From Marchantia polymorpha subsp. ruderalis (lineage: Eukaryota; Streptophyta; Marchantiopsida; Marchantiales; Marchantiaceae): a stretch of 64,000 bases of DNA. This document shows, in pieces, positions 38,061 to 59,622 of this stretch. Under the pieces are notes generated by a model, which saw nothing but the letters and a program-made list of their open reading frames with translations, ran no database searches and was not told the origin of the DNA. The stretch is taken from contig AP031352.1 in NCBI GenBank assembly GCA_037833965.1, positions 12,628,501 to 12,692,500 on the forward strand, written 5' to 3'. Every line of letters starts with the position of its first letter. Within the stretch, counting starts at the first letter, position 1. The position numbers and the translations under genes were made by a program.

Positions 38061-40269
38061 TTTACAATAGAACCTATCTAAGTTAATATTGCCAAGACTG
38101 TGGCATCTCTATTAATTTAGACAGGATATTAATAACAAGAGTATCGAGAAATAATTCTCCATTTGATCCATTTGTAACATTTGCGAGCCCTGACGTTCAC
38201 TTGGAATAGCAGCAACCCACAATCACAACTGCAGTTACAACCAGAACCACAACACAATGGCTTCAAAGAGATTCACCGAAACAAACATGATTAACGAGGT
38301 TCGGATAGCTCTTTCTGAGCCAAGGAAAATATCTATGCAGTAACTCTCCACCAATACTGTGCCGGAATATGAAGTGGAGGCTGACGATATTCAAGAATTC
38401 ATTTTCGTAAAGGCAATTGAATAACTGTAGTGTGCAGGTTTGTTGCGGTAGTTTTGGATGCAGCAAGACATCGTTGAGCATGGGATGTTTGTTGCCATCA
38501 AGACAGCCAACTATAGTATGAGCATTATGAGGTCTAGCAAGCTCGTTCAAAAACCAATATCGGAGTATTTCTTCAAAGTTTAGCTGCCCAAATGTAGAAA
38601 ATTTATGTGAAATCTATGTATACCATAGTGGTTATTTATATTAAAAATATTCAATAACATCTGTGGAGTATCAGTTATTAACTTTTGAAGGGTTTTTAAT
38701 AAATTTAAGGGTCACTACTTGGGACTAGATCGCACATATTAATTATCACAAGTTATTAATTTAGTCAGTATTAATTTAGACATTTTCTACTATATTACCT
38801 CAGTGATTCTTGATTTTAACTTTAATAACGAGGTGTTCAAGAACAAGATTATGTTTCTTGAGCACAAAACAATATCTTTTTTCACTTTAAGAAATGTTTA
38901 AAACCATCTGATGTGACTATCAAGATGCTTAAGTACAAAATTTTACTTTTTTTAGACAAGATCTTACATAATTTTGAAACCATCAAATTTAGCTTTTCTT
39001 CAAACATTTGTTGCGTAGAACGAACCAATAATTATTTAAAATGCGTCTCAAAAGAGTAAGAAAAGAGTTGCGGAGAACTTAACCGCCTCTATTTTGTGTA
39101 GGTGAAAAAACATTTTCATGAAATTTGAAAATCATGATCTATGTATTACTTAAATGCATTATGAACATTTAGGAAGATTTATAACATTGCAAAACATCAT
39201 CAAAATCTGTAGAGTCAATTCGATGCATAGTCAATTGGAATGATTGTGGTGTGAAGGAATGAAAAATCACAATGATACTTGAAATTAGCGCTTTAGGTGA
39301 AATATATATCATGCTAATTATTGCAAATAGCATTCATCTAGATATTTTGAAAAATATCTAGATGTTCAAAATCATCTAGCTAAACTCTAACAAGATTTAT
39401 CATCTTATATGCGCACTCTGCATAACTACAACTACAACAAAATTAACAAGAATCGCTACTTCATCTTTTATATACTTCAAGACAACTATTCATCTTATGT
39501 ATGTAGTATCTAAATCTTGTATCCATCCTGATCTCCAAAAAAATTTTCTACTATCAAAAGCTATGTATCATTTTTTTACATCAAATGATACTAGCGAATG
39601 TCAAATTTTTTATTAAATAGTCATTGCATCTTTCAAAACTTGTTTTTGAAATTTTCAATTGAACCATTTGATGTCTAAATATCAAGATTTTGCTAATAAG
39701 TGAAAGTCTAAATGATTTTTAATTTACCTTATTAGAGATTATACACATATGCGCAACGTGCTTGATTGGATCAAATTAACATCGAGAAGAATACTATTTG
39801 AGGCTACTTCGTCACAACCAATTGTTTTCCTTTCATTTTTGAAGTTATTTTTAATCAAGAAATCTAAATCAATTCAGCTGTTCACAATTCAAGTCAAGCG
39901 GTAGAGAATTTAGTGGAAATTTTGAGAAATTCAACTAGATAATTATTTCTTGATAACCTGGATCTTGATGATGCAAATATGAAACAAATTGTCAAAATCT
40001 TATTGAAATGTGTGCTTTCAATGCTACTGTAGACAACAATGTTGATGATGTTAGCATTTTCAAGTCTTTATTCAAATAACACAACTTTTTGCAAACTGCC
40101 ATCAATTCAAATGACGATGATAATTTTGAAATCTCATATTTGACGACCGTCGAACAAGCGAATCGAGCAATTACTAGTTTGTTCAACTTTCTTTCTATTA
40201 AGTTAACTTTATCAACCTAACCTCAAAGTAAACTATTCTTCAATTTCCAAAAAGCTTGTCATTCATTGA
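38061..40269. other. AT-rich intergenic DNA, no supported gene
   Basis: An open stretch of 95 codons on the minus strand (38263-38550) has no domain I can name. The remainder is AT-rich with many stops. A perfect palindrome at 39335-39364 is listed separately. Confidence 0.35.
39335..39364. repeat. Perfect palindrome, 14-bp arms, 2-base loop
   Basis: CATCTAGATATTTT at 39335-39348 and its exact complement at 39351-39364. Confidence 0.9.
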
Positions 40270-40538
40270 TGTCATGTAACTCGGTATTTGCTAAAAATAG
40301 CGTTGAGCTAGGGTTTCAAGTCGCGTATGGTATAGGGTCTTAGGATACTCGAAGAACGTCAGTTCTTCGAGTCGAGCCTAGTGCATTGGGAGTAGTGCGA
40401 GTAGAGCGACCCGTTAGCGTTGACATGGAATCTCTACGGAGTGGGAGTGGCTTGGGCTTGACTTTGTATGTGAAGGTTGTTGCCACTGGGATAATCATAC
40501 CAACGGGAATTCCAATGGGGAAGATCCCGTATATTTCA
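40270..40538 (+). repeat. 5' LTR of the Ty3/Gypsy element
   Basis: 269 bp, TG..CA ends, about 91-92% identical to the 3' LTR. It contains an internal inverted repeat around CTCGAAGAA/TTCTTCGAG. I found no standard tRNA-Met primer-binding site directly after it. Confidence 0.9.
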
Positions 40539-43500
40539 CTCGAAGAACTGACGTTTTCTGAAATTGTTACAATTTACGGTTTTAGTTTCGGTGCTTTTCT
40601 GGTATTATTCGGGTGATTTTCTCAATTGAAGTTGAAGATTTCTCGTGTTTGTCATGAGACTGTCACGCTTAGTTTGAATTTCAGGATTTCAAACGAAGGT
40701 ACTTCGATTTCTCCTATTCGTGCTTGAGGGTTTCAAAGTGATTTTAGGCAGTGGTTTTGTGATAACTTCAAGATTTGGAGAAAGAGTGCGAGTTTGTATT
40801 TAAAAAATCGATGGTTCAAAGATTGCACTCGGCAGATTTTTTGTGTTTGTGACAGCGTTGACGGAAAATATGCGCATCGTCGGCATTGGCATGGTGGTTG
40901 CTGGTGTCCGGTGTAGGAAGTTGGAGCAATCCATTGTTGTTAAGTTGGACAAGTTGTCAAACAGAATTGCCTAGGGTTTAGGAGGGCGGATGAGCGATTT
41001 TCTGAACCTGTTTAGATTTGTGGTGTCATCGGAAACTGGATCGCATGCTACTGAAGGCGAGAGGTTACGAGTGCAGAGTCTTCGGTTTGGAACAAAGATT
41101 TTCTCCAAGACACTAGTTCGGGTAAATTTGTCTATCAAGCTTTTCAAGTTGTTTACAGATATGAAGGAGGTTGAAGTAGATACCGTGATTAATGCAACGC
41201 AGGAAGTTACGAGATGGGCTTATGGGTGCCTCGTTGTTTGAATGAGATATTGAAGTATAGAGTTCAGAACTTAGTTCACGATTTGGAGCTCATCGTTTTT
41301 TTAAGTAACACTGTGCTTCTTCATCGGCGAGTAGATTGAATTGGATGTGGCATGAAGCTTTTGCCGGCCGGGAGGCAAAATCGTAGGTTCACACTATGAG
41401 TCATTCTCCTTCAGATAGGCTAATTGGGAGCTGAGCAAAGCGCAGACCTGTGCTGTATCAAGCAGAGGTCTCAACGGGTAATTGCAGCATTTACAACGGA
41501 TTAGGGTATTGTGACCGGGCCAGAGGTTTAGATACTCGTTCATTTGAAGCAGGTGGAGACGAGTTGTGATAGAAATACTGTACGAGTCAAGGTCTAGTAT
41601 GTCTTCATTCTGAAAGTCTAATCCAATATCAAGAGAGGAATTTGACAGAGAGCTGGCAAAGTCTAGTTTACTCTGATCAGATTCTTCCCCTTTTCTCCTA
41701 GACATGTAAACATTGAACGGATTCGCAGGCGGTGTACTAGTTTACTCTGACCAGATTCTTCCCCTTTTTTCCTAGACATGTAAACATCGAACGGATTCGC
41801 AGGCGGTGTAGGAGATGTCAGAGGTAAAAAAGTTCTCTAGAACGTGGCTTTATGGGGACGCATATTGTCATGGTTTGCACAAGAAGCAGTTTTGTCCACA
41901 TTGCAATGCAAGGGTAGGCAACTGATACAATCCTGGAGTACAGGCCCTTGACAAACTCCATGCAGCCTATCAAGACGGGCATCGATTTCGAGAGAGAAAT
42001 ATTGTTTTTAGCATCCAACAGTCGTTCTGAAGAGTCTGACTATCACCTTTCAAAACAGTCGTGTGAGTTAAAAACATTGTCCGTGCAGCCCTGGTAGAAA
42101 AACCTGAATTTCAATCCATTTCGACCAGTGATTGGAGGTTTGGGGTGCGGTCTTGTGGATTCATGATATTATTCTGCATCAAACTATCTGGAGAACCTCC
42201 TGAACACAAGTCCATAGTCTCCTGTGAACTGTATGAATTTGCTTGGTTGCTAGGCGACCATCTCTTCTGATTTATCACATTCACTTCAGTTCCTCCACCT
42301 ATTGGATTTGCCTCGACCTCAATTGCAGTGACTCTCCAGCGGGAAAACTGGCTAGCAGCGCCATTTTGGAGCAGAAGTAGAGGGAAGGAAAGAGCTAAGG
42401 CAGAATTTGGGCCACCAATTAGAACTCCCTAGGCATATATAGTAGTATAGAACATATAAAGGCTTCAGAACCTTATTGTACACCATCATGTCATACTTGC
42501 CTGTCATTGAATCTTTCAGATTCTCCATCACCCTTCGTATAACCATCTCCGGGCAGGCGTTCCCCCCAGGCTGTGTTCGAATATCGGGAAATGATAACTT
42601 CTGACCCTACTAGCAACAGCACCCGTTCCGGTCAAATTATCAGTGACGTCAGGAAACAGAAGGGTATCAAGGAGTAGATCACCGCCCTTGCTGAGTACGA
42701 GGACTGAGTAGGTTTTGATAGTTCCTTCTCTTTATTTTACTGTCATGCAAAGACGGTGGACGGTGTTCACGTAGACTCTACCTAGTGAATGGGAGCCGGA
42801 ACGGATAATAAAGTCCATATGTCATTCTGGTTTATTTGAATTTTGCAATGTTTCTTAGACCAAGAACCTTTTACAACATGTACTAAGGATTATCCTCTCA
42901 ATACTGTAGATTGCAATATATTGCATTGCAATCTGTTTGTCTATGAGATGTACATGAAAACCTAGAAGGGTTCAGATGTCAATGCTAGTTTTGTCATTAT
43001 CCACCAACCTTCCGATTGAGGTGAAGATACACTTAAAGAATCCATTCTGAGAAATACTTGCAATAGCAAAATGTGGATTTCTGGACTTGCGGTTAGCTAG
43101 TTAGGTGAGTTGCTTTGGTAGATTCAACTACGATTTATGCAGGTTAGGTTTATCACTATGATGTTATAGTGATAAACAGTAGTAGAAGGTTTAGTTACCC
43201 AGAGTAGTCTTCTCTGCAAACGGAAAAGTACAATTGGAGTTTGCAGCCTTTTGAGAGGTGGACTTGATACATGCCTTACAACTGCTTTCAGTTTTACAGT
43301 ATATTTAACTGGGGTAAATATATGACAGTGGTAATTTACAGTAAAAATGTTCATGATTGATGCTCCTATAAAACTTTGTGATAGTTTTATAGTTAAACTG
43401 TAATTAGTTTTCACTTTAGTGATCTTGTTTTTAGATACCTTGTAAACAACACTAGTACCCAGTGAATTTTTTAGTTGGAAGAAAATGCCGTTTGGAGAGA

Positions 43501-44179
43501 AAGTGGGAGACAGTGAAGTACCAAAAATTCAGACGGTGGAGGTCGTCAACAGCGAGGAACGTGATCAGGAGCAGGAGTTGACAAGGCAGCCTCAAGTAGA
43601 AGAGAATCAGGTGAACACTGTTGCTGTAGGAGAGAAAAATTCTGGATTTGATTGGGACGAGGAACTAGCAATAGAAAAACTTCTAGAGGAATCCGGTATA
43701 GAGTACAGAATATGTGAAGATGAGTTACTAGACCTTCTTAAAGATATCACTGATCATTTGAGAGATGTTCAGTATGTGCAAGATTGTTTGTTAGAAGAAA
43801 TTCTTGTACTTGAAAAGATTCTTGATAGACTTAGCAAGGATTGATAGCTAATACCTGTAGGATCGACCTCTTGGATCTTCATCTGCGATCTTGGCATCCG
43901 TTGCGGGTTTTAGCGGAGTGCTTACCTGGCCTCATGACTTGTTGGAGTGGAACATGTTTGCCAACGATACCTCAGTCTACGAGGATGTGGAGGAGGTTGT
44001 GAGCTTTGCAGCGAAGGTGTCTTCACCCTTAGATGTTCCACTTTGGAGTTCTTGTCACACACTATAGTTGGAGGCTGATAGGTTGGTGAAGAAGGCTTGA
44101 AGTGAAGCCTCTTTACCAGCAGAGAGAGGCAGGTAGAGAGGGCTTCAGGTGATCGGCTAGTTGATGGTTCTAGCGCATA

Positions 44180-45985
44180 ATCCCCATTGGTTACTACACC
44201 GATTGCATGGGAGTATTCTCCACATGGTGTTTGTGTGTTGGATCTTTTTGTTGGGATCAGCATAGCTTTGACTGCAGTGTTGCAATTAGGTATCCCCGTG
44301 CGCATATACTTGTATGTGGAGAAGTATGAGACTGGACGTCGAGTTTCTTCACAACATTTTGCATAGTTGATGCAGCGTTTCCTAAATTGTTGCCACAATC
44401 AGCTGTTCGAGGATACCAGAAGGCGTTGCTTTCAGACTTTCATTTCTGGGGGCGCCGGACCTTGACTAAGTCGGCCATATTGATATGGTGATTGCGGGAT
44501 GGCCATGTCAGGAACACACGCACGTTGGACATGGGACAAGGTTGTATGACCCAAGATCTCGGATGTTTTGGGAGATGATGCAAGTGTTACGTCATCTCCA
44601 TGTGCATAAGACACGTTCTCCAGCATACATTCTAGAGAACGTACCATTGTTGAGTGACACTCGAGCCCAGTTGATGGCGAGTGTCCACCAGGTCTGCAAC
44701 CTCCAGGCTGACTCTCACTCAGGTTTACCTTAGATGGCTTTTTGATAGCTCATCATGGTTCTAAAAGACCGGGATTCCTCCTCATACTTATAGCCCAAAC
44801 ACCCTCTCACACATTCCACTCAAGGTATCACTCCAACTCACTCACACATCGACACTCCAAGGTATTGAAAATTTGTCACTCTTTCTTATATGAAACAAGT
44901 CTCTACATATGAACTCTTCAAACTTGCTTGGGAGGCTCTTCTCTACTTCTCTATATATATTACTTGAGAATTTACCATGGTAACAAATGATAATTTCTAT
45001 CTCACTTACTTTTACAAAGATAAACCATAGTAAGGTTGACTAGTTATCAATATGTGGCAACATGCCATTGACCTCTTAAATCTTCTAGATGTTTCCTTCT
45101 AGATGTTTACTAATCCTTAGATTGAGGTGGCGACATGCCATTTGTGCCTTTCCAACTTCTAGAACTTCCACTTTTCACTAAATTGACATTAGACTTACTC
45201 TAATCAATGAAGTACTCTTTATTTTAATCAAACCAATCAAAACTAAACATGAAGTCAAAAAGTCTTTTCTCTTGGAATCTAGACTTTTGTACAAGACAAA
45301 ATAGAAGCGCTCACTCAAATCTTTTAAAATTTTTCTAATTATTCCGCCAAGTATAGACATTATAGCTAAACTAGCTAGATTTAGTCATAACTAATCTAAC
45401 CATAATTAAATCCTTAGTTAATTCTAGTTCTAGTTCACACATACAACATCAGATCTTACAGGTCCGAGCATGGATTGGATCAGCAGTATTGTTGGATGCT
45501 GCGAGGGTTGGATCACGTGCTCATCGTGCACGTTTATGGTGAACCAACCTTTAGCCACGAGTGATATTGCGTCATGCCTATGATTCTGTGCAGTGTGATC
45601 CTACACTCACCGTTGACAGTATCATGGATGTTTTCCGACGTTCTCAGGTAATGAGAGTTGCTAACAGGTCACCTGTGGCGTTGGTATACCGCATAGGTTA
45701 GCCTCGGATGGCTTTACTCACGTTGGTTAGTTATCCAACATCACATGCATATTGTGATGGTGGACTTGAGCTACTTTGGAATTCTGCAGTACATTAGTTG
45801 GTGGAGCCAAACGCTGACAAGAGACATCGTGCGATGGGATTTATGACTAGTGTGACCGCAACATCTTCAGTTTCTAAGGCTTCGCGTCGTCAGGTTTTGG
45901 GTCACGCTATGGACCTTAACTGCTTGACGTGGATTGTGAGCTTGAGTTTGGCCGAGCAATGCCGTTTGTGCGTTGATTAGGTGGT
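44180..45985 (+). other. C5 cytosine DNA methyltransferase-like region of the Ty3 element (fossil)
   Basis: The translated plus strand shows landmarks of a cytosine-5 methyltransferase in order. A motif I-like SAM-binding block is near 44,240. The catalytic PCQ block lies within AGWPCQ at about 44,500. A DPRSRMFWE block follows, then motif VI ENVP at about 44,635. After an AT-rich interruption come a DAARVGSRAHR-type block near 45,500 and the C-terminal RRQVLGHAMDLNCLTWIV block near 45,890-45,940. The LGIP, DAA..GS.AHR and WTNL features recall the DRM/DNMT3 type more than MET1 or chromomethylases. About 720 AT-rich bases (roughly 44,735-45,455) split it; they begin and end like an intron (AG/GT..AG) but could be an insertion. 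Broken, with several breaks. Its position inside the LTR pair and directly before RT indicates that it belonged to the element. Confidence 0.8.
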
Positions 45986-46285
45986 TAGTACACCACTTGT
46001 TAGCTCATTGTCTACCGAGACGATAGTGGCAATGGCTGGGGTGACAGGCGAGATATTCGTCGTCCTTGGAGTTCATGGGACGTGACGAGAGTACTTGCTA
46101 GAGTTGCAGCCCATGCACTTGGAGAGGTTTTGCATGCGGAGGTTGCTCCGAAGGAGGGTACCGAGACCCTTACTTTGGAGGATGTGGCGTAGCAATCAGT
46201 GAGAGTATTACCTTCCTCTAGTGTGACTATAGAGGAATGGGAACCATTGATTGGTTCCTAGATCATAATAGGAGGGAGGCGACAG

Positions 46286-47272
46286 TTGACACAATTCTTA
46301 CAAAATCATAGGAATTATTTTGCTTTCAGTATGAAGAAGTTGGATGCTTTGATTGAACCCGGTATACGGATAGAATTGGCTAGTGATACGCCAATCTTCC
46401 GTCGCCCTTATCCATACAGTGAGATAGAGAGAGATTTGATTTGGAGTAGGACGTTGGACCTACTGGAGGCTGGATTAGTGGAGTTATTGCATGGTGAGTA
46501 TGCGTCAGCCACTGTCATGCCGATGAAGAAGGATGTACATGGCAACTACACGGATAGGCGCATGTGTGGAAACTACCGTCTTGTCAATCGGCAAACGAAG
46601 TCCGATAAGTATGCCATGCCTACACCTGAGGAGATCTTTGATGTGGTGAGACATGCAAGGATTTTTAGTACTTTATATCTTCGGGCAAGATACCATCAAT
46701 TGCCAATTCGGAAGGAGGACAAGGCCAAGACAACATTTTGGGGCATCAACTTCCACGGCAAGGATTGTTTGTATCAGTGGCGATTCTTATCCTTTGGGTT
46801 GAAGAATGCACCTGCCGAGTTTCAGAGGGTTATGGACAGAATCCTAACGGGGTGGATTTTGTCAGATGTTACATTCATGATATCTTGGTGTTTAGTGACA
46901 CTCTGGAGCAACACCAGATACATTTGCAGGTTGTTTTTGAGCGGTTGAAGTCTCATGGTTTGAGGTTACATCCTGGGAAGTGTAAGTTCTTCCAGGAGAA
47001 GGTTGAGTACTTGGGTCATGTGATATACCCAGGTGGTTTAGGAGTTTAGCAAGCAAAGGTGGAGGCTATTGCACGCATACCTCGTCCCACGAATGTGAGT
47101 AGAGTTCGTGCATTCATGGGTTTGGCGAACTACTACCTGAGGTAGTAGTTCAAAGAACCAATAGTTCAGGTGCAATTGTTGAAGTCAAATCAGGAGTGGC
47201 AATGGGGAGATGAGGAGTAGAGAGCTTGTGTTGAGCTCAAGGTCAGGTTGGTGACCGCTCTCATCTTGAGTA
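46286..47272 (+). other. Ty3/Gypsy reverse transcriptase region (fossil)
   Basis: A 220-codon open stretch (46286-46948) and the following part to about 47,160 match the Ty3/Gypsy reverse transcriptase: MPMKKD, MCGNYRLVNRQT, the LPIRKEDKAKTTFW block, the FLSFGLKNAPAEFQRVMD block, and the connection region (LHPGKCKF, VEYLGHV, FMGLANYY). The nested DNA transposon interrupts it just after the connection domain. Broken copy. Confidence 0.9.
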
Positions 47273-47513
47273 AGCCTCGGCAAGGTAAGGTAACCCTTTA
47301 GGGTTACCAGGTAAAACGATAAAAGGTAACTGTAGAGGTAATACATTTGGCGTTAGGGTAAGGTATAGGTAGGGTAAAGGTAGAGCCTCCCGGGTTACCG
47401 GGTAATTACCAGGTAACCCGTGAAAAAAAAAACCTGAAAATTCTGACGCACATTCTCTTGGAAGACCTCGAACCCCGCGAAAAGCCAAAATCACAAACGT
47501 GAACACTGACAAA

Positions 47514-47731
47514 ATTACGGTCTACTTGCCCCAAGATTTCACGAAGGAATTTCTCGGAGGCCAGGTGCTCGTTTTCAACCATTCCTATCATTTATTTTTC
47601 ATGCACATGTATTTCATTTGTGCACATATATCTGGATCTACATCCGTTCTTGCTCCAGACCGTATCATTATAGTTCAAAAATTTGAAGCTTATGTTGAGT
47701 TCACTAAAACGAATTTGCAAGCAAGAAAATC
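47514..47731. repeat. 218-bp direct repeat, copy 1
   Basis: About 95-96% identical to 49283-49500, 1,769 bases downstream inside the same transposon. The translation includes TVYLPQDFTKEFLGG, followed by a GT-starting, intron-like stretch that ends in CTCCAG, so the unit may hold two small exons. It does not have LTR-like TG..CA ends. Confidence 0.9.
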
Positions 47732-49282
47732 TGCTTGAACTTCTTACCCAGACTAATATGCTCTCGATCCTGACGCTTGATGTGCCTGTGCGAGTTCTAC
47801 CCTCTGTCTTAAGCTCCGTGCAACCTTGTCAGCCGTTCTGTTCTCGAGTCGTATGGTCTCTCGAGGAATACACAAATGTACCAGAGTATGACATCATGAC
47901 CGAAGAGCAAATCTTTGGCTACTCATTGAGTTATGTCGAATGTCCACACTTTGCATCATTCTTCATAGCACTTGTTAGAAACTGAAGACTCACGGGAGGA
48001 TATGTGAAACCTGCTCAAGTCTTAAATATGAAATTTTATTTGTAGAATCAAACACTGAGCTATTGGCGAGCCCCATGCTATACTACGGGTGAAGATTCTC
48101 TGAATTCTTCCTATTTGTTTTCATCGGCTTTTGTGCTCTTGCCACCTTAACATTCCTCGACATTTGTCATATTGTAACACCTCTACATTTGTTTGTTACG
48201 TCTTTAGACATGTTTTGTTATCTCTCTCCTGTCCATTTCTTCCATGTCGCATTCTCTTGGGTTTTCATTCTATGCCCCCGTTTTTCCACATCTTTGGTTT
48301 GTATTGACTTTATAAACTTTTCCTTCATGAATATACTTGTTATTACCGTTACTCTTCACGCTAGTTTCATTTGCAGAAATGATTTTTTTTCAAGTCTAGA
48401 CCTTGAATTTTGGAATCATTATGTAAATAGATGTTGTTTGGTATAATATAGATGTTGATTTTTTGTTTGCTAACAATGATGTAGAGAAGTTACAAGATCA
48501 AGCAAGAGCCTCCTTACCTTCTGCCGTTTATTGGATGCTAAAATGTTGCAAGAGTTCATGAAACTCATAATCGTCATAAAGGTTTGAGACCATATGTCAT
48601 GCTAACGCCATCCTGACTAGCTTGGAATCTAGAAACTTTTGAAAGATTAGTAAGGCTTGATTCTTACCAGGTTATTAACAAACGTCGGACTTGTAGAACT
48701 ATTCAAGTCTTTACCGTCCAATCTACGCAAATAAATTATCACTTGATTGACTTTGTTGATTGGACATTCTCTTTGTCTCGCAGGATTCTGTCGAAGCACA
48801 TAAAGGACTTGAGGAGGAAGAAAGAGAAAGGATGCAGGTACGAGACCAATCCATTGCGCCAACACGATGTGTTGATGAATTCTAAGAGGGAAGAATTCTG
48901 CCTGTATCCTGTTCTTGTCGTTAATGAACAAGTTGTCAAGATAGAGAATCTGAACAAACAAGCGTCTCATGTTTCCTTAGTACTGTTAGAAATCAGTTAG
49001 TATTGAGTTTTGATATCTAGATGTGAGCTAGATGAATCATTTCCAGGTGATATCTTTTCTATCACTGCAGGTACTGTGTACCACAGTATTCGCTTGCTAT
49101 AGTAGTGCCATCAACAACCATGTCTTCTTCCTCTTTCACTTCAACTTGTAGAGATATGTTTTACCACAAGGATCATCTATAGGGTTTTTTTTATGGATGC
49201 AACAGCTTAAGTTCTTTCACATATCAATACTTTTGGAGTTTGTTGAACAATACCAAGTTCACTCAACATTTTTTGGAACAGA

Positions 49283-49500
49283 ATTACGGTCTACTTGCCC
49301 CAAGATTTCACGAAGGAACTTCCCGGAGGCTAGGTGCTCGTTTTCAACCATTCCTATCATTTATTTTTCATGCACATGTATTTGATTTGTGCACATATAT
49401 CTGGATCTACATCCGTTCCTGCTCCAGACCGTATCATTATAGTTCAAAAAATTGAAGCTTATGTTGAGTTCACTCAAACGAATCTGCAAGCAAGAAAATC
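49283..49500. repeat. 218-bp direct repeat, copy 2
   Basis: Second copy of the 47514-47731 unit, in the same orientation. Sequence on either side is unrelated between the two copies. Confidence 0.9.
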
Positions 49501-50102
49501 ACATACATGTGTTCTTGTACAGTTTTATTTTCAGATCTTTGGGCCATGAGTTGCTATGAGATTCAAAGGCTATCTGGTTGATCACATGCTTTCTCATATG
49601 GTTTATACACAAACTTGCTGCTGATTACCTATCTAATCAAAGACGATTTACGTGAGGTACTATATCTTCACGGCGTGAGCTTTCTAATTGCGTTAAAGCT
49701 GGAGATAAGCTTGTTGTAAACACATTCAGAGAGCATCGTTAGATTCTTCTCTCTCCTTCGAGGTAAATATTAATGTTAAACGTCCCTGCGTCTCATCCTC
49801 ATCCGACCACGTGTTCAAGTATCTTCATGCTGCAACTTTTCTCACTTGTGTTTGTGCTAATGATGTTTGTTCGTGTCTTCTTGCAGAGCCTGGACAGATA
49901 ATTTGTCAGGACGAAACAAACAAAGAGTCAGGTAAGTACTGTACCGTACAAAGCAGTCTACATGCAGGACATATAGTATCTTTCTCATGACTTATTATAT
50001 CATTAACCCGTAGACATGCCACGCTTTACCTCGCGTTGATAAAGTGCTTGAATTAATGCAGAAAGAATCTCTTACATGCCATAAAACATCAAAGACAGGT
50101 AA

Positions 50103-50128
50103 ACTGTGTTCCTAGTGGAACACAGTTC
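50103..50128. repeat. Perfect hairpin, 11-bp arms, 4-base loop
   Basis: AACTGTGTTCC at 50103-50113 and its exact complement at 50118-50128, just upstream of the hAT transposase reading frame. Confidence 0.9.
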
Positions 50129-50202
50129 AAAGAGATCTAGCGGATTATGTACTCCTGTCAGCTGACAATCAACTACTCCGTAGTGCAAGACAGCCTCTGC
50201 AA

Positions 50203-52275
50203 TGACGAATCTCTTCCTACGAATGTGCCTTGCAGCAACGATGCTCAGCATGTTGTCAACTCAAAGCGAAAACGAGCACGACTATCCTTTTCTTAGGATA
50301 GTCGTGCAAGGCAGGCGACCCCATACTACAACGCCAGCAACGACAATGTACAATGTGCTGCAAGTGGTTTTCCCACAAGACCACTGCATCGGGATGGAAG
50401 GCGCACCTGCGTTTGCACGGCATCACGGATTATGACAACGACTCGTCCACATCATCAAGAAAGTTGTGGGTTCAAGCGACGTTGACCTGTGTTCGCAAGC
50501 CGAGGTTCTTGACACTCGTCCTTGAAGGGTTTGAGAACGCCGTCGTCGATTACGTCGTGCAAGGTGGAGTCACACTACGTGCAGCTGGTAGCGAGCGCTT
50601 CAAACAATTTGTTGTTGCACTGATGCACGGTTATGAGCCACCGTCAACTCGCACTATCCTCCGACGCATTGCTGAACTACATCGTGTACTCGAGCTAGCT
50701 CTAGCGGCATTTCTTTGCAATCTGACTGTAACCATCTCGTTAACTCTTGACGGCTGGTCTAATCAAAATCTGAAAGGCTTTCATGTTGTCACTGCTCATT
50801 GGATGTACGTCGTCACGATGAAGATCAAGACCACTTTGCTGACAATCTTGGATGTCAAGTGTGGAGCGGGTGTTGGTGTGCGTGTGGGGACAGACCTATT
50901 TGAATACTTGAAGCGCATGGGCCGAGATGTAGTCACGCGCATTTTGAACGTCACCAGCGATAATGGATTCGACGCAACAAATGCAGTTGTGCGACTCTTC
51001 AAGCTCGTGAACATCTTTGTGCGATACGAGCAACTGCGCAAGTGCAATCACGTCAGATGCGCCGACCACTCTGTCCAGCTTGCAGTGCTGCAGGCCTTGA
51101 AGCTCATTCGCCAACCCACCGAGCAGCTACGAGACGGCTTGGTGAAGATGCGTCGTAGCAAAGTCATTCAGCAACAGTATCGAATTGAGGCCTTGCGCTC
51201 TGGGTTGAGTAGCACAGAGCCGACGCATGTAGACTTACAGACGAGATGTAACTCGACACATCAAATGTGTGACGATGCTTTTCGCAAGCGCGTTGTCATA
51301 GACACAATCATGGATCAATACAAGGATGACATTGGCCATGATACTCTTAAAGATTCGGAGTGGCAGGTAATTGCCAGCGTGTCAAATTTTCTTTGTGCAC
51401 CACGCCGAGTCATGGAAAGTTTTGCGGGGAACAGCAAGCTAACACTCGACCTTGTGTCATTGTCCATTGCCATGTTGATCAAGCATTGCAATGACAACGA
51501 GCAAAACTTGCAAGAGATTCACGACGCTCTGACGGCGATTCCCATGAAGATGAAATTGCAATCTTATGAGCAGAAGCTGGTGCAAGAACTAGCCATCATC
51601 GTAGTGTATTTCAACCCGCATATCCCAAAGCCGACTGACACTTTAGAGCTGATGGTTGTCACTGAAATTGTACGCAACCTCATGCAGCGACGCTACTCTG
51701 CCGAGAGCACCAGGACCCAGAGCCGAGAACTACCATCGGAAGCGTCATGCAACACGCTGTTTTCTGCAATGTTCCAGCCGCAGGGAGTTGAAAGTGGAAT
51801 AGATGATGAGGTTGATCAGTACTTGTTGATCGGTGTTGTCCATGCTTCGGGCTTCATTGATGTCTTGTCGTGATGGTCGGCCCGGAAGTATGCACTACCA
51901 GGTCATTACCAGATGGCAATGGACTATTTGGGAACACCAGCAACGTCAACGCCATCAGAGCGCGTGAATAGCGCTGCCAGTCGTGAATTCACATGTATGC
52001 GGCAGTCCTTGTCATCGTCGGTCTTTATCATGGTCATGTGTTTACGGTCTTGGATGAATGCAGGTATACTTAAAGTGCCGGTGCATCGAGCGGTGGCGGC
52101 CACAGCTATCCTAGCTGAAGGAGAGGAAAAAATTTTGGAATCGATCGTCCAAAACCTTGAGGAGGAGCAAGGTGGCTGGAATGAGGAGATACTCGAAGAT
52201 GACGTCATTGCAATGCTCCATTCTCAATTCTCTGACCTTGTTTTTGACGCTGAACACGATTTTGGATTTGCCTAA
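50203..52275 (+). pseudogene. hAT transposase gene, nearly open, two in-frame stops
   Basis: One reading frame runs from about 50203 to the TAA at 52273-52275. Domains in order: a basic NLS-like SKRKRAR; a BED zinc finger (CTMCCKWFSHKTTASGWKA then HLRLHG); a region with LTLDGWSNQNLKGFHVV (DUF659-type); DDE-core landmarks TSDNG and CADHSVQ; and a C-terminal hAT dimerisation domain (ATSTPSERVNSAAS). In-frame stops are at 50299-50301, inside the right arm of a perfect hairpin, and at 51871-51873. Except for these the frame is intact for about 690 codons, so the copy is young compared with the hAT relic at 0.4-2.2 kb. It would cut and paste elements with matching ends, presumably the 47273-56910 element. 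Small exons upstream (for example 49887-49931, bounded by CAG and GTAAGT) may belong to the gene. Confidence 0.9.
50276..50307. repeat. Perfect hairpin, 12-bp arms, inside hAT gene start
   Basis: GCACGACTATCC at 50276-50287 and its exact complement at 50296-50307, with an 8-base loop. The right arm introduces one of the two stops in the transposase frame, between the NLS-like stretch and the BED finger. Confidence 0.9.
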
Positions 52276-52386
52276 AGGCATGGATTACATATTGTTGCAT
52301 CTGGTTGTAAAATTCTGCTCTTGATGATGGAAGCTTTTCGGTGATGGAGGCGATTTTCTTTTACTCTAGATAGATTTGGTGCCTTA

Positions 52387-54350
52387 CAGTAAAACCCCTG
52401 CTAAGTTATCCCACGCTAAGTTATAACCCCTTGTAAGTTATAAAAAATTTACGGAACAAACATACTTCTATGGAGACTAAGTTATAAAGCATAAGTTATG
52501 TCCTCAATGACCAAAATAACTTTTCAGAGGTTTCTTATTACTGCTTAAGCCAGCCATCGAGCATCGCTTGTTGGAGATTTTTGAATCAAATGGTGCTTTG
52601 GATTCTACGTAGCTGACAATGTACTTGGTGCTCCACAGGATCCGCTGGATTTAACATTGAAATCACCACCAATAACCATTTTAGCTTTTCAGCACGTGTA
52701 AGTTGTGCTAGTTACTCCTCCTCAGGGTTCCGATGGATGGGTCATTCTCCTGGCCAGTGACAAGGTTTGCGATCTCCTCGTCATTCAGAAACATATGCTC
52801 CACACCGCTTTCCTCGATCGGATTCAACAGCGATGCAATTGACATTGGATCCCACAAAGGTAACCTGTGTAGAGCATCCGTGAGCTCTTCCTCGACCTGC
52901 TCCTCTTCTAAAAATGCCTGACGGTCGTCTTCTACAGCCTCGAACAGTCCTGTGTGGCGAAAGCAGTCTCGATTGCCTGCTGCGATATCTCGTTCCATGA
53001 TGCGAGGCACCACCTCATTGCGGTATGTTGATCAACTTTGTAGAGGTTGACCTCATTCTTCTCATCACGATCCAATGCATTTTGCAAGTGGAAGCGTCGG
53101 TAATGTCTCTTGAAAGCAGCGATAATCCAGGCGTCCATGGGCTGAATCTTTGACGTCGTGTTTCGCGGCAGTGGGCATACTTCAACATTTGGAGTTGGGC
53201 ACTCATCAGTGATATGTGAAGGTGCATTGTCCATCAACAGCAGGATGTGGCGACGTGGGGCACGCATCTCTGCATCAAAGCGCTTTAACCACTCTTGGAA
53301 AAACATCCCAGTCATCCAGGCATTTTTATTTCATCCGTAATAAAATCCAAGCTGTTCGCCAGTTTTGCGATTGAAGCAACGAGGTTTCTAGGCGGGTCCA
53401 ATGAAAAATGGCGGCAGTTTGTGAGATCCATTGGAATTTGCAGTGAGTGCGAGAGTGATCCTGGTTTTGTCCTTTTTAGAACTAGCAATACGTTGTTGGG
53501 CAATTGTCGTATCTGGCACCATACTGTAAAAAAAGGCCCGTTTCGTTCATATTGTAGACATCTTCCGGATTGAAGGCAGCGATACGGGGCCCGTAATGCT
53601 GGCATTGCCGCTTCGATCGCATCATCATCGACTGATCCAACTTCACCATGGATTTTAAAGCTCTTTTGTCTGTTGCGGGACAGGAACTTATACAGCCATC
53701 CATTTGAAAATTCGATGTTGCCTTCAAGTATTTTGAGCATTTCTGCAAATCGTTGACCTTGCGCTTTGATGAGATCGTATGTAATGAAGACATTCCGGTG
53801 CTGGCACTGCAGGACCCAGAGTGAAAGTGCTTCTTCAAGATCGGAAAAATTCACGGTTCTCAGCCTTTTTGCGTGAAGCTTGTGTTCATCTATTAGCTCA
53901 TAATCATGCTTCTTCTTTAGAATCTTGCTAATGGTGACTTGCGATGGTGCCGCTGTAAGCCCAAATTTTCCCTTGGTCCATGCTGCAACTTCTGCCTGCG
54001 ACAACAAAGCGTTGGCTTCCTTATATTTACAGATTTGAAGGCGTTGCTCATTGGTGAAGCGTGGTGCCATGCTGCTGCCAATGAAAATAGTAGATGAGCA
54101 AGGAGTGCGAAGAAAAGCGGAGTGAAGGGGCGAAGAGGTGAGAACGAAGAAGTGGGAAGAGGGGTAGAAGGGCGGGGGAGTGCGAGGAGCGAGCTTCTAA
54201 TATTACACTGCCTAGATGACGTACATAGTCAAAATGCACTTTACTAGAGCTCCTGATTGGCTACGGTACATACCTCCCAAAAGTTATAACCTCCCGTAAG
54301 TTATCAAAATCCCCTTCCACCTAGGCTATAACTTATCGGGGGTTTTACTC
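52387..54350 (-). mobile_element. pogo/Tigger-type Tc1/mariner transposon
   Basis: A 1,964-bp element flanked by TA (52385-52386 and 54351-54352). Inverted ends: the left reads CAGTAAAACCCCTGCTAAGTTAT; the right, reversed, begins GAGTAAAACCCCCGATAAGT. Further AAGTTATAA motifs lie just inside both ends. It encodes a CENP-B-like DDE transposase on the minus strand. It lies inside the 9.6-kb hAT-bearing element, just downstream of the hAT gene. Confidence 0.92.
52725..54070 (-). pseudogene. pogo/Tigger (CENP-B-like, DDE_1) transposase, broken
   Basis: Starts at ATG 54070 with an N-terminal psq/CENP-B helix-turn-helix (MAPRFTNEQRLQICKYKEAN) and a second DNA-binding domain ending around LYKFLSRN. 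The DDE_1 catalytic region follows in other frames: VYNMNETGLF, then LLLMDNAPSH and KIQPMDAWIIAAFKRHYRR. The first catalytic block is normally NxDETGxF; here the aspartate is an asparagine. There are at least two frameshifts around 53,350-53,600, so the copy cannot make an active enzyme. The open stretches are 53312-54070, 53482-53838 and 52932-53315, with the tail to about 52,708. Confidence 0.9.
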
Positions 54351-54363
54351 TAGTTACAAATGA

Positions 54364-54418
54364 ACCGTATGCGCTTCTCTCAGTTAATGCTAAGAAAATT
54401 GAGAGAAGCGCATACGGT
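54364..54418. repeat. Perfect inverted repeat, 19-bp arms
   Basis: Arms 54364-54382 (ACCGTATGCGCTTCTCTCA) and 54400-54418 are exact complements with a 17-base loop. It lies 12 bases outside the right TA of the pogo element, within the hAT-bearing element. Confidence 0.95.
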
Positions 54419-56700
54419 ATTATCCCTGAGTGTCCAAGCATTCTGTCAAGTAGTATGTGATTGGAATATTCTCTTCATCTTGTTACCGTCTTTTACTTCA
54501 TTCAAGATAGAACTAATTTTTGTCTTTAAAGCTCCTGTATCAAGTAACAGCTGAAAGATAACTCCTCTGTCTTGAGACTGGAGTTAACTGATGATTGCCA
54601 CTTTTTCTCAGATCAATCTAGTCTGTTCCTGTGAAATGTATCTTTTTTTGTTCTAACCAAGACCAATATGTGGATTGGATCTTCATTAGGGAAGTATCCA
54701 TTTCCGTGGTGCTTCTTGTTGTTCTGCTCAATTACCACGATCGAGAACATTACTTTCATCATTTAGTATGTGAACTGGAAGTGTTGATTGCACACGTAGA
54801 GCTCACTGAAAAAGCAGTTATTCTGTATATTCTTTTCATGCCTTCTAGCTCAAATTGGAAAGTCTCAAAAAACACATGTAGGCTTTTCCTCTGAATCAAC
54901 CAAATGTTTGTTGAGAAGAAGTCTATTGACCATTTTTTGATTCCATTCCATTCGAACTATCGTCAAGAAGCAAATTTTTGTTTCCTTCTTCACCTCGTTT
55001 TCGAGTCATTCTTGGTTCAATGACTTTGGGCATTTTTGCTGTTGAGTCAAGTTTGCATCACTTACTTGTAACAAAGTCCCATATAGTTCTTCTATTGCCA
55101 TTTAGTTCATGTTACTATAGTCAAGTCAAAGATATTTATAGGCCACAAAGGTTATAAAGGAAACTTTCCGGCGGAATTGCTTTGCAAATATATGTGATGG
55201 AAGACGTAAGGAAGCATTCAGGGGTTAAATAAGCTGTTTTGAAATTTTCTTGTGCTGGATTAAGTCTTACGCATTAGCTGCTCTTGGGTCTCCAAATAGT
55301 ATAACAGTGGGCAATGTTGGTATGTCGTACGATGTTGTGTCTTCTGCTCTTCTACTTATTTGCGTTATCCTTTGTAAGTGTTAAGACTTAATTCTACTTA
55401 GTCGTTGGTTATGCGCACTCAGTTTTCAGTTTCCCATTGAACATGCTAGAATCTCTAAGTTGGGAGTGATTCCAGGATTTTGGTTTTGGTCACCAGATCC
55501 ACATAATGCACTGTGGATGGTTCATGAACACATTTCCTCAAGAGCATCTATCGCTAACCCAAGACTTTACTGATTGACATCTTTGTCTCACATCTTGGTC
55601 CAAATCTTTATGTAATGTCTCGAAATGTTTTCTACGATGTTGAACTGTAGTTGCACTCTAATTTCAGTGGTGATTTGCCAAAGATTTCATGAACGTTCAC
55701 TTTGCTTAGATTTGCCCGAGATGGTTGTAAAATGTTTATATGAGAACGGAAGGCTTTACACGTGATCGAGTAGTATGAGTGTTAACTAGACCTTTGCATC
55801 TGTCAAATTTCTTCAAGGCGAGGAGATTACAGATATGATCAGAGTATGAACAGCATGTACCTTTCTCATTGAGTTTCGCCAGATATGCTAACTTAGTAGG
55901 TATGACGTACATTCCAGCTGCGACAGCTTTCCTGATGGGCCAATTGTGATAAGGTGCAAAGACCTGATCGTAAGCCTTGGTTGCTGGCTCCTTCAGCGAG
56001 TTTCCTCTGCAAAGTCATTGTGACTTGCGTTAAATCTGAGGAAAAAACCACTCTTTTCGAGCAAATCTTATTTTCCATTTACGTTTCTGCGCTGTTTTAG
56101 ACGTTTTGTATAGTCCATAAAGCAGGACCACAACCCCTCTTTGCTGAGAATTCATGCTTGACAACTCGAATACAAATATTTCTTTCACTTCAGTAACCAT
56201 GTTTTGATTGGAATCTATAAGTCACCGTTTGAAAACTTCTGTATGAGATGTATTTGGATTCGCATACATTCTTCTGAAAATCTGCACACTTCAGTGACCA
56301 TGCAACAACATAGGTGGAAAGGTTCTAGCGACTCACTCAGTCGTCAGAACATGCTGGAAAAGAAGTCGGACCATGTCAATTACTCGTTTGACACAAAGCA
56401 GGTTACGCGTGTGACTGCCACCTTGTTTCACCTTGTCAGCCTGGATATCGGAATCTACCATTGCTGCTATATTGTCAAACTCCTTAGATGCATCCAACAA
56501 ATCTTTGACCTAGATACAGAGGAGAAGGCTTAAAGCATCAGATCAGAGTACGTACTCCCAAAATTCACATACAATAGTTGAGAAATCTATGTTCAGACAT
56601 TCTTGTTACTGCGTGTTTGTATATTTAGACGAAATTCAAGTAGCAGCTGCTTTGCATGAGGAAGTCATGAGTGTTAACTAGTCAAAATGTGGACACGCAC
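54419..56700. other. Right arm of the nested transposon, no recognised gene
   Basis: Moderately AT-rich DNA. Open stretches of 87 codons at 54631-54894 and 109 codons at 56204-56533 (+) have no motif I know. The GGTAA-rich terminal array begins at about 56,715. Confidence 0.4.
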
Positions 56701-56910
56701 ATGCAGCACCAATATAAGGTAAGGGTAACTTCTGAGGGTAATGGTAACTTTTTAACCTTTTAAATCTGTACCAGGTAACCAGGTAATGACCATGAGGTAG
56801 AGGTAAGGGGTAAAGATAGATCGTAGTGCTAAGTGTAAGGTGGAAGGTAGGGTAAAGGTAGAGAGCTTTACCTTACCCGTCTACCTTTTACCTTACCTTG
56901 CCGAGGGTTA

Positions 56911-58540
56911 ATCTTGAGTACACCTATCAGAGGTCGTCCATACCAATTGCACACTGACTGGAGTATGTTGGGACTTGGAACGGTGTTGACGCAGCGTGAT
57001 GATGAGGGCAAGGAGTTTGTGGTTGCGTACGCTAGTCGTTCAAACAATGCAGCGGAGTCGCGATATAGTTTGTACGAGGGAGAGTGCTTGGCAGCGGTGT
57101 GGGTTGTGGCACACTTTAGGTGTTACTTGTTTGATACGCAGTTCACCCTTATTACTGATCATCAGCCGCTCAAGTGGTTGATAGAGTCCGACAAGCTCAT
57201 AGGGAAGCTTGCACGGTGAGCTCTCATCTTACACGAGTACAACTTTCAGGTAGTGCATAGACCTGGAGTTGCGAACCTAGATGCCGATGATTTGAGTCGG
57301 AACCCATGCACTAGCCAGGAGGATGACATTGGAGCTAGATGGCATGGTGAGGTTGACGAGAAGATGGTGCATGGTTGGCATGCATCTACCTTCATGTGTT
57401 GGTTTCGTGGAAACTCCAACAGAGAGTATCATTTGACATCTTACTCTAGTAAGAGAGTGTATGATCAATCTTCAGCTCCTGAGGTTGAGTATGGTGGTGT
57501 GGATCAGCGTGATGTTCACGATGATGCATTGGGGTTGGAGTTCCTACGGACCAGCATGGTGTCAGGCACAGTAGGTGCCAAGGAGCAAGTTCGTGTTCTC
57601 CAACTGGCGAAGAGATACCTATTAGAGGGATCACATGTTCTCAGAGTGTGGAAGGACGGTACGGTACTAGTAGTACCACATCCAGCTTAGAGAGCACGCA
57701 TTGTGAGGTATGCTCATGAGAAGTTGGGACATTTGGAGTGAAGCGTACATACAGCTTACTCCTTGGTTAGTATTGGTGGCGTGGTATGCATACTCAGGTA
57801 TAGCAGTTGGTATCACGTTGCATAGTTTGTGATCGGGTGAGGGCATCGTTCAATGCCCAAACACCAGAGTTACATCCATTACCCATCATGGGGTTGGGTT
57901 ATTGTTGGAGTTTGGACTTTGGACTTTGCTGGACCACTACCTTTGACTGTACGACATCATCGGTATGTGTTGGTCATGGTAGAGCATTTCTCCAAGTGGA
58001 TTGAGTTGGTGGCATTAATTGACAAGGCAAGTGAGGGAGTAGCATATGCTTTCCTTGACAGGGTGCTTAGTCACTATGGTGCACCAACTGAGGTGTTGAC
58101 CGATCAGAGGACGGAGTTTCAGGGTGAGTTTAAGGTCTTGTGTGACAAGGCACTGATTGATCATTGGATCACGTCGCGAGATCATCTAGAGGCGGATGGT
58201 TTAGCTGAATGTGTTGTATATACATTGAAGAGGGTGTTGCGCAAGTATGGCCTCCAGAAAGGTCATCTTGAGGACTAGGATATCGAGTTACCATGGTTGG
58301 TCATGGGATATCGGTTCAGTCTTCATGCATCTTTGGCTTCCTTCTCATCATATTTTCTAATGTACGGCCGAGATCCAGACTTGCCAACATCGATTTGTCC
58401 TGAGTCTAGCGAGGTAGTGAATCTTGATAACCCGAACATGTGGGTGAGAGTATGTTTTCAACGTGTAGAGCTCTTTTGGAGAGTTATGCCTACAGCGTTT
58501 GAGAATCTTGTGATTGCTCAACATAGAGATACGTTGTGAT
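56911..58540 (+). other. Ty3/Gypsy RNase H and integrase region (fossil)
   Basis: Continuation of the pol region after the nested element. RNase H is at 56914-57219 (LHTDWSMLGLGTVLTQRD, VAYASRSNNAAESRYS, FTLITDHQPLKWL). The integrase zinc-binding region is at about 57,720-57,830 and the catalytic core at 57853-58278 (the block with LDFAGPLPLTV, VMVEHFSKWIELV, LSHYGAPTEVLTDQ). It shows the family order typical of Ty3/Gypsy. Broken copy. Confidence 0.9.
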
Positions 58541-58590
58541 ATGCAACCATTTGGGGAGGAGGTTATCGACCATCAATTCGTAGATTCCAT

Positions 58591-59013
58591 GTGGAAGACT
58601 ACGTTTATCTACAGCAGACTGCACCGACGACATTGGATGTGACGACCGGACGCACAATCTTGCGAGTGCGGGAGGTGTTGTCTTCTGGAGTTCTCCTGTT
58701 GGAGGGTCGTGACGGCGTTGTTTGGAAGGATCATGTGCGCAATTGTGCGCCATGCCACCTCCCAAACATAGATGGTACTTTGGATCCAAGCATAGCAATA
58801 GTATGTGTTGGCTTGAGGTGCATGCTGTGCGGATTAGCTGGTCAGGCGGTCCGTATGTTGGTGTGTGATAGGTGTTCTAGGGGGATGACACATGTCGTGT
58901 CTGACTCCACTTATCAATGTTATTCCGGTTGGACGATGGGTTTGTTCTCGATGTACTTCAGAGGTGTAGATGAGTTGATCTTCACATGTTCTGAATTGCA
59001 GATAGGCGATTAA
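58591..59013 (+). other. Integrase tail with PHD-finger-like cysteine cluster (fossil)
   Basis: A 140-codon open stretch. Its first half resembles the SH3-like C-terminal end of gypsy integrases (VREVLSSGVLLLEGRDG, VWKDHVRNCAPCH). The second half has CMLC, an 11-residue gap, then CDRCSRGMTH and a later cysteine, the spacing of the first half of a PHD finger (CxxC...MLVCDxCxxxxH). Many gypsy integrases carry a chromodomain here; none is visible. PHD identity rests on cysteine spacing and the LVCDRC motif only. Confidence 0.6.
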
Positions 59014-59142
59014 CAATGGGTCGACATAGCACCCGGCCTAATGGTTCACGCACTCACGAAGGTGTATAGCATGTAGTTGTAGATAGGGCTACCTGGGAGT
59101 GAGAGGGACCTGACCAGCAGCTAGGAGGGCGAGTTGTGGTAA

Positions 59143-59233
59143 ATTTGAGTGTGTACGCTCTCTCATCTAAGATGTGTGTATGTGTGCGTATGCGTATGTG
59201 AGTAGCATGTCAGCGATGTAGAATGTATGACGA
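59143..59233. repeat. About 90-bp repeat flanking the 3' LTR, copy 1
   Basis: ATTTGAGTGTGTACGCTCTC, followed by a GTGTGTATGTGTGCGTATGC block. A second copy, about 90% identical, lies just outside the 3' LTR at 59531-59622. Confidence 0.85.
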
Positions 59234-59252
59234 TATATATTCACACGACACC

Positions 59253-59520
59253 TGTCATGTAACTCAGTATTTGCTAAAATTAGTGTTGAACTAGGGTTTC
59301 AAGTCGCGTAGGGTATAGGGTCGTAGGAGACTCGAAGAACGTCAGTTCTTCAAGTCGAGCCTAGCGCGTTAGGAGTAATGCGAGTAGAGCGATCCGTTAG
59401 CGTCAACCTAGAATCTCTCCGGAGTGGGAGTGGGTTGGGCTTGACTTTGTATGTAACGGTTGTTGCCAATGGGGTAATCATACCAACGGGAATTCCAATG
59501 GGGAAGATCTGTATATTTCA
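59253..59520 (+). repeat. 3' LTR of the Ty3/Gypsy element
   Basis: 268 bp, TGTCATG..ATTTCA, the partner of 40270-40538. Confidence 0.9.
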
Positions 59521-59530
59521 ATTGTACTAC

Positions 59531-59622
59531 ATTTGAGTGTGTACGCTCTCACATCTTATATGTGTGTATGTGTGCGTATGCGTATGTGAGTAGCATGATA
59601 GCGATATAGAATGTATAACGAC
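59531..59622. repeat. About 90-bp repeat flanking the 3' LTR, copy 2
   Basis: Second copy of the 59143-59233 unit, located outside the element and ten bases after the 3' LTR. Confidence 0.85.

Follow-up and report, generated by a model that had tools for sequence, protein, structure and literature searches.

The window analysed here is a stretch of 64,000 nucleotides from the liverwort Marchantia polymorpha subsp. ruderalis (assembly GCA_037833965.1, contig AP031352.1, positions 12,628,501 to 12,692,500 of the forward strand), and its coordinates are counted from its first letter. Positions 40270-59623 are a single decayed Ty3/Gypsy retrotransposon, in which a C5-cytosine methyltransferase lies ahead of the reverse transcriptase (RT). 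The best overall explanation, to which a probability of about 0.8 is assigned, is that this fossil is a dead copy of a Ty3/Gypsy family that carries a DNMT3-type enzyme and follows the life cycle proposed below. In the copies read, the family layout appears as repeat A1, primer site, a long variable leader, gag/protease/DNMT, a UAG-CARYYA stop, RT/RNase H/integrase/PHD finger, a purine tract and B1-A2-B2.

The methyltransferase of the fossil is recognised by the Pfam profile DNA_methylase (PF00145) at 44470-44730(+), with an E-value of 1.7e-8 and a score of 34.7 bits (cut-off 22). With annotated Marchantia homologues as guides, tblastn places it in two blocks (43861-44694 and 45459-46189) spread over three frames, 68-85% identical in amino acids to protein P0059 and interrupted by frameshifts and a 764-bp insert. 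The RT downstream is matched by PF00078 in two frames (E 3.3e-9 and 6.1e-16); Marchantia proteins map it by tblastn to 46235-47289 and RNase H from 56911, where RNase H and integrase pick up again beyond a 9.6-kb insertion. That insertion contains a hAT dimerisation domain (PF05699); it has inverted ends and is bounded on either side by a duplication of 10 bp. No match to gag or protease (P0059 residues 1-730) was found anywhere in the window at E 1e-3. Between the repeats A1 and A2 there are 15 transitions, 9 transversions and 1 gap (91% identity), and their Kimura distance of 0.096 indicates that the copy is old. The initial annotation, made from the letters of the window, is upheld where it placed a methyltransferase ahead of RT in a Gypsy element (PF00145, the tblastn blocks and PF00078): the motifs it named fall inside the two blocks, and the profile check it proposed for the 43.5-46.3 kb region gave the significant PF00145 match. 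It was also right that the copy is a fossil.

Genome searches were made in the 241-Mb Marchantia polymorpha assembly. The DNMT motif occurs at 264 sites and the RT motif at 283 (at most 2 mismatches), with 0 control matches each. Among the matches listed, 54 of the 81 exact RT-motif sites on contigs C1-C4, which were picked independently of the enzyme, have an enzyme site within 3 kb upstream, and 42 of the 71 exact purine-tract/B1 joints on these contigs have a DNMT site within 5.5 kb. These counts agree with the earlier view of the methyltransferase as a trait of the element. The fossil DNMT fragment, used as a protein query, gave 14 matches, all in Marchantia polymorpha. In a genome search with PF00145, 123 of 290 candidates were scored and 119 were judged family members by the matched range; 23 of the 119 were read as sequence (20 fetched copies plus L162, L163 and L167). 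The 20 copies were drawn from the 25 of the 123 loci that lie in frames of at least 1324 codons; they are not a random sample, because the enzyme served to find them and open frames to select them. Both long frames are open in 14 of the 20, and all 20 keep the catalytic Cys and Glu and the motifs GWPCQ, ENVP, LFGGIS, DAA.VGS.AH and RRQVL. The median pairwise ratios of nonsynonymous to synonymous substitution rates (dN/dS; pairs with dS > 0.05, 16-20 copies per domain) are 0.090 for gag, 0.087 for protease, 0.163 for DNMT, 0.063 for RT, 0.037 for RNase H and 0.092 for integrase. The A1-A2 identity is 97.95-100% in 11 copies and therefore indicates recent activity. As read from the sequences, the family is abundant and recently active in Marchantia polymorpha, with a DNMT3-type enzyme as a regular part.

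The first open reading frame (ORF1; gag, protease, DNMT) closes with TAG, and ORF2 (1042 codons) continues unbroken in the same frame in 14 of the 20 copies. Pfam matches in ORF2 of one copy are RT, RNase H, H2C2, rve and, at 996-1040, PHD; the PHD finger is intact in one young copy (PF00628, E 9.2e-11). The RT in the second frame of one Marchantia copy is nearest to Ty3 Gag-Pol among solved structures (E 9.9e-98). The TAG-CARYYA context is present in 19/19 copies, the rearranged L182 being uncounted, and in the fossil, so that the stop at 46190 is a conserved feature of the family and not a sign of decay. Genome-wide the site is found 213 times (at most 2 mismatches; 0 control matches), 100 of 100 being exact among the matches listed, and variants with a first base other than T number 2. 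According to the part of PMC5382211 consulted, tobamoviruses have UAG-CARYYA as their type I readthrough signal, and readthrough at the UAG is suggested by this likeness. No earlier description of such a stop between enzyme and RT was encountered in the literature consulted.

Identical long terminal repeats (LTRs) at both ends are not found: the left end has A only and the right end B-A-B, the latter in 14 of the 20 copies. In the 12 B-A-B copies traced upstream, the purine tract is followed by B1, 2 bp, A2 and B2, with B1 and B2 97.7-100% identical, and A1 (291-293 bp) is present in 11 of them. A1 and A2 each start with TG and finish with CA. Of 11 young copies, 10 are flanked by a perfect 4-bp duplication beyond A1 and B2, as the fossil is by TTGA, and L168, which runs A1...B1 when traced upstream, has a perfect duplication (TCTT) outside A1 and B1. 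Such 4-bp target-site duplications are as expected for DDE integration. The integrase is an rve domain (PF00665) with H2C2, the domain order (protease, RT, RNase H, DDE integrase) is that of Ty3/Gypsy, and no phage-integrase (tyrosine recombinase) family is among the Pfam matches of one copy's two frames. The LTR pair of the initial annotation does exist as two matching repeats (40270-40538 and 59253-59520, 91%) but is only part of a set of split direct repeats. In the sources consulted, each seen in part, the 4-bp duplication bounding the split repeats A1...B1-A2-B2 is not described. The primer-site core directly after A1 is the exact complement of an A1 segment in 9 of 11 copies; in the fossil the complementarity spans 18 nt. 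The A1/primer-site joint has 278 genome-wide matches against 4 control matches. L173 has an additional near-identical B-A unit in tandem, and in L180 a second element tail follows (93.8% identical). The 3' ends of L173 and L177 might have been left by a concatemeric intermediate or by recombination.

The leaders extend 2.8-4.5 kb from the primer site to the start codon; their last ~600 nt are common to all 11 copies and the remainder is mosaic. The copies are near-identical, and their leaders (L188-L199 with L169-L186) are mostly unrelated to one another apart from this shared end. Pieces of the leaders of two copies match repeats and other copies, and in these two a host-gene source is not apparent.

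Judged from its intact relatives, the family enzyme is of DNMT3 type. Its motifs keep the unrearranged order (I-IV-VI-VIII-IX-X), and among solved structures the intact relatives (P0077, profile A1) are nearest to DNMT3A/B by both sequence and fold. The profile matches DNMT3A at E 1.1e-15 versus 1.7e-6 for the DRM-type chain 4onj. The fossil fragment alone is too short for an assignment, and its best matches are weak (DNMT2-type, E 0.017; DNMT3A, 0.16). DRM is not among the 50 entries listed in the structure comparison, which is not evidence of absence. Among 76 aligned relatives, the catalytic Cys is kept in 71/71 rows with a residue and the ENV Glu in 75/75, with 5 gaps and 1 gap, respectively; the Pro before the catalytic Cys is replaced by Glu in 18. 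The 16 retrotransposon enzymes compared form one clade (100/99), and the host DNMT3-like gene is 28.6% identical over 185 residues. In the tree with host genes, the long DRM branch is placed without support. Approximately unbiased (AU) tests reject neither a pairing of the retrotransposon enzymes with Marchantia DNMT3-like (p 0.10) nor one with fish DNMT3 (p 0.25), and sisterhood to host DNMT3 alone is unsupported in the tree with the Marchantia DNMT3-like and DRM-type loci.

A bacterial or phage origin of the enzyme was also considered and rejected: scans of viral and genome contigs gave 159 loci, of which 22 entered one tree and 8 of these another; the 22 behaved as phage/bacterial methyltransferases and fall outside retrotransposon enzymes plus DNMT3 (100/98). 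Locus L160 (G000:C6:12459417-12460289) is read as a DNMT3-like host gene in Marchantia. This conflicts with the list of five Marchantia DNMTs (MET, CMTa/b and DRMa/b) in the consulted part of PMC5784723, in which DNMT3 is not included.

With the DNMT region of P0063 as query (best 7996 candidates scored), 79 proteins were recovered. They include proteins of Marchantia, Calypogeia fissa, Sphagnum fallax, Haematococcus lacustris and Monoraphidium neglectum, one EukProt entry, one from a spirochaete metagenome-assembled genome (taken for contamination), one fish DNMT3 and others that are mostly metagenomic; no match named Klebsormidium was among them or in the fossil-fragment search. Two domain orders are seen. 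In class A, which includes Marchantia P0066, the DNMT lies between protease and RT; in class B it lies between RNase H and integrase, often with a PHD finger next, the PHD profile matching 35 of the 79. RT-RNase H trees set class A (3 rows) apart from class B (24 rows) with 100/100. For class B P0114 the nearest RT is again that of Ty3 Gag-Pol (E 6.5e-65). Over 27 elements, DNMT and RT identities are correlated (Mantel r 0.574, a value reached in 0 of 2000 permutations), with a pairwise Spearman coefficient of only 0.22; the mean DNMT identity is 0.40. In the integrase tree, the window (57841-58275) groups with Sphagnum P0091 (81% identical), whose DNMT is 74% identical to that of the Marchantia element over 238 columns; P0091 fell below the length cut of one relatives tree and is absent from it, and in that tree P0066 was mislabelled as class B. 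The identities between the Sphagnum and Marchantia elements are high for a moss versus a liverwort, and horizontal transfer is possible.

Table 1. Parts of the decayed element in the window
Feature	Position	Strand	Remarks
Left target-site duplication TTGA	40266..40269	.	identical to 59624-59627
Repeat A1, left end, TGTCATG...TTTCA	40270..40538	+	91% identical to A2
A1 segment complementary to primer site	40355..40372	+	perfect inverted match over 18 nt with 40538-40555
Putative self-primer binding site directly after A1	40538..40555	+	core ACTCGAAGAACT
Leader/no assigned function	40556..43860	+	without gag or protease match
Methyltransferase, first part: linker, motifs I-VI	43861..44694	+	three frames; PF00145
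764-bp insert in methyltransferase	44695..45458	.	CAGGTC on both edges
Methyltransferase, second part: motifs VIII-X and ORF1 tail	45459..46189	+	two frames
Conserved UAG-CARYYA stop	46190..46198	+	TAGCAATCA
Reverse transcriptase	46235..47272	+	frameshift near 46850
9.6-kb insertion with hAT transposase domain	47273..56910	.	10-bp ATCTTGAGTA flanks, inverted ends, nested elements
RNase H and connection region	56911..57690	+	PF17917 in frame 56851-57219
Integrase and C-terminal part	57841..58539	+	PF00665
PHD finger, split over two frames by frameshift	58813..58960	+	conditional E 2.5e-7 and 2.5e-8 in a search of 999 residues with a profile built from relatives
Purine-rich tract	59119..59131	+	AGCTAGGAGGGCG; young-copy counterpart AGCTAGGGGGGCG
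Repeat B1	59132..59250	+	
Repeat A2	59253..59520	+	
Repeat B2, right end, ...ACGACA	59521..59623	+	
Right target-site duplication TTGA	59624..59627	.	

Besides the parts listed in Table 1, several other features are seen in the window. The 764-bp insert is intron-like (34.6% GC, CpG observed/expected 0.24, the CAGGTC repeat and GT...AG edges). A 74-bp unit stands in two tandem copies, 96% identical, at 41663-41810. Within the hAT-containing insertion, direct repeats of 223 bp (47509-47731 and 49278-49500; 96% identical, 1.77 kb apart) are perhaps a small non-autonomous LTR element, and at 52932-54196(-) lies a nested transposase whose domains are DDE_1 (PF03184) and Tc5-type DNA-binding (PF03221). 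The frame at 6745-9588 is 100% identical to Marchantia polymorpha MPTK2_2g11750 over 99% of its length.

The life cycle proposed for the family is as follows. The majority of ribosomes would halt after the DNMT and a minority would read through; with most halting there, the enzyme would be made with Gag and in excess over RT. The DNMT may be co-packaged with Gag and methylate element DNA. The transcript would prime itself by pairing of the A1 segment with the site after A1. Under the usual rules of reverse transcription, the predicted complementary DNA (cDNA) would have B-A at both of its ends, given a purine tract ahead of B1 and a primer site behind A1. The integrated order is a circular permutation of this cDNA and so points to a circular or tandem intermediate, at whose B/A joint the DDE integrase probably acts; A...B copies would fit a one-unit circle. 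The DNMT would methylate the new element DNA before or at integration and the PHD finger would help to select chromatin unmethylated at histone H3 lysine 4, such that copies may be quiet from the start.

A number of observations weigh against this account. Among the matches listed, 27 of the 81 RT sites and 29 of the 71 purine-tract/B1 joints have no enzyme site within the distances given, and some family copies may lack the enzyme; the window's own copy, in which the enzyme is present, falls among the 27. The refuting condition of the initial annotation, other copies lacking the region together with near-identity to a host gene, is not borne out. The DNMT is less constrained than RT (0.163 versus 0.063) and RNase H (0.037). 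The structure model has a mean predicted local distance difference test score (pLDDT) of 63.7, with ~62-96 per 10-residue block over the enzyme. No A1 is present in L181 within the fetched DNA, the duplication of L184 matches in 3 of 4 bp, and the primer complementarity is inexact in 2 of 11 copies. B-A-B is missing from 6 of the 20 copies: L168, L171 and L183 end after a single B, L177 passes from A directly into another element's leader and first frame, and in the 10 kb fetched L182 has only an A and L187 no repeat. The A...B form of L168 is equally explicable by B1-B2 recombination. The CpG observed/expected ratio lies at 0.71-0.72 in 18 young copies and at 0.67 in the fossil, against 1.1 in one host gene, a depletion for which host methylation would suffice. 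The steps of readthrough, self-priming and circular integration are inferred from sequence, and self-methylation by the element's enzyme is likewise an inference, and the Klebsormidium enzyme gave no methylation in yeast, a result its authors considered inconclusive (PMC5890265, consulted in part).

Among the other explanations, it is possible, if doubtful, that Gypsy elements captured DNMT3 independently at least twice, once ahead of RT (class A) and once between RNase H and integrase (class B). The two positions largely track the RT and DNMT clades, the integrase tree puts P0135 (class A order) weakly (88/32) next to a class B row, and the DNMT tree leaves P0090, P0135 and P0115 unplaced. 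However, the retrotransposon enzymes of both classes group in a single clade that excludes fish DNMT3, the Marchantia DNMT3-like and DRM-type loci and 8 or 22 bacterial/phage enzymes, in trees with few host DNMT3 rows; because of this single clade, one capture followed by relocation is simpler. An extension of the single-capture reading, held only tentatively, would make the family part of an old, green-plant-wide Ty3 lineage, with a single DNMT3 capture, a move of the enzyme between two pol sites, translation of the enzyme together with Gag ahead of a readthrough stop of tobamovirus type and its packaging in surplus, self-primed cDNA, a circle cut by the DDE integrase at a ready-made B/A joint, and PHD-guided insertion of previously CG-methylated DNA. 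Under it, a two-unit circle would give A...B-A-B and a one-unit circle A...B as in L168; if true, it would join DIRS-like circle integration to a retroviral-type integrase. A smaller chance is given to the enzyme's being a neutral passenger, captured once and with no role in the life cycle. Enzyme activity is a prediction, the dN/dS of the DNMT exceeds those of RT and RNase H, and some RT sites have no nearby enzyme site among the matches listed; but a dN/dS of 0.163 is far below 1, and the catalytic Cys and the Glu of ENV are invariant among relatives whose mean DNMT identity is 0.40, although the preceding Pro is Glu in 18.

The remaining explanations are much less probable. The initial annotation considered the enzyme DRM-like, and a Marchantia DRM-type locus does match P0063 (29% over 126 residues). 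This identity is very unlikely and was rejected on the unrearranged motifs and the closer DNMT3A match; L161, a Marchantia locus read as DRM from its motif order, is no closer, and the DRM branch is long and unsupported in a tree where the AU tests reject neither DNMT3 pairing. About as improbable is an ordinary LTR element whose 3' B copies arose accidentally by nesting or tandem duplication. The TG...CA ends of A1 and A2 and the six copies lacking B-A-B would suit it; but B-A-B in 14 copies and the positions of the duplications, outside A1/B2 in 10 of 11 and the fossil and outside A1/B1 in L168, led to rejection of a plain LTR pair, and KnitGypsy-Dnmt3 is reported with the same repeat order (PMC5890265, as far as consulted). 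The least probable is that a host methyltransferase gene or pseudogene was inserted as a single event or captured recently. LTR elements are well known to pick up host genes, but this case is refuted by the 264 enzyme-motif sites, by relatives in other bryophytes and algae, and by the distance of the host DNMT3-like gene from the single retrotransposon clade; the near-identity to a host gene that would have favoured it, according to the initial annotation, is not seen. Overall, that annotation is partly supported, and the preferred reading remains a dead copy of a DNMT3-carrying Ty3/Gypsy family.

In the consulted part of PMC5890265, retrotransposons with their own cytosine methyltransferase are reported from one charophyte and from dinoflagellates. 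In Marchantia, a land plant amenable to genetics, such stretches number in the hundreds and some retain open frames, so that the question why a transposon would methylate DNA becomes directly testable. Plant DNMT3 gene counts can be inflated by transposons, and the split repeats with 4-bp duplications pose a further testable problem, the way in which a circularly permuted cDNA is inserted by a DDE integrase.

Several known systems may be compared with the family. Ty3/Gypsy elements of the Tf1 type are self-primed, a primer site by the left repeat complementing a segment of that repeat, and the same complementarity in Marchantia suggests self-priming. DIRS/PAT elements integrate by tyrosine recombinase without target duplication; they share the order A1-coding-B1-A2-B2, whereas the Marchantia family has a DDE integrase and 4-bp duplications. 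The dinoflagellate SymbioDIRS-Dnmt3 and SymbioLINE-Dnmt are likewise retrotransposons with a cytosine methyltransferase, the DIRS type having DNMT3 and split repeats, as described in the part of PMC5890265 consulted, but they use tyrosine recombinase or LINE machinery in contrast to the Ty3-nearest RT/RNase H and DDE integrase of Marchantia. The nearest likeness is to KnitGypsy-Dnmt3 of Klebsormidium nitens, described in the same part of that paper with Gypsy domains, an intronless unrearranged DNMT3 in the coding region, A-coding-B-A-B repeats likened to DIRS, and a Ka/Ks below 0.2. The initial annotation was correct that charophyte algae offer a precedent. No report of such elements in bryophytes was found in the literature searched, which was mainly open-access, and the main text of PMC5890265, as far as consulted, has one 'bryophyte' and no Marchantia, liverwort or moss. 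Compared by description, the Marchantia family shares the Gypsy domains, the intronless unrearranged coding-region DNMT3, the A-coding-B-A-B order and the purifying selection, and because of this precedent its kind is already known. It differs in that its host is a land plant and that its enzyme precedes a UAG-CARYYA stop separating it from RT; a variable leader, a primer site, a PHD finger and 4-bp duplications, which do not occur in the part of PMC5890265 consulted, are seen in the Marchantia elements.
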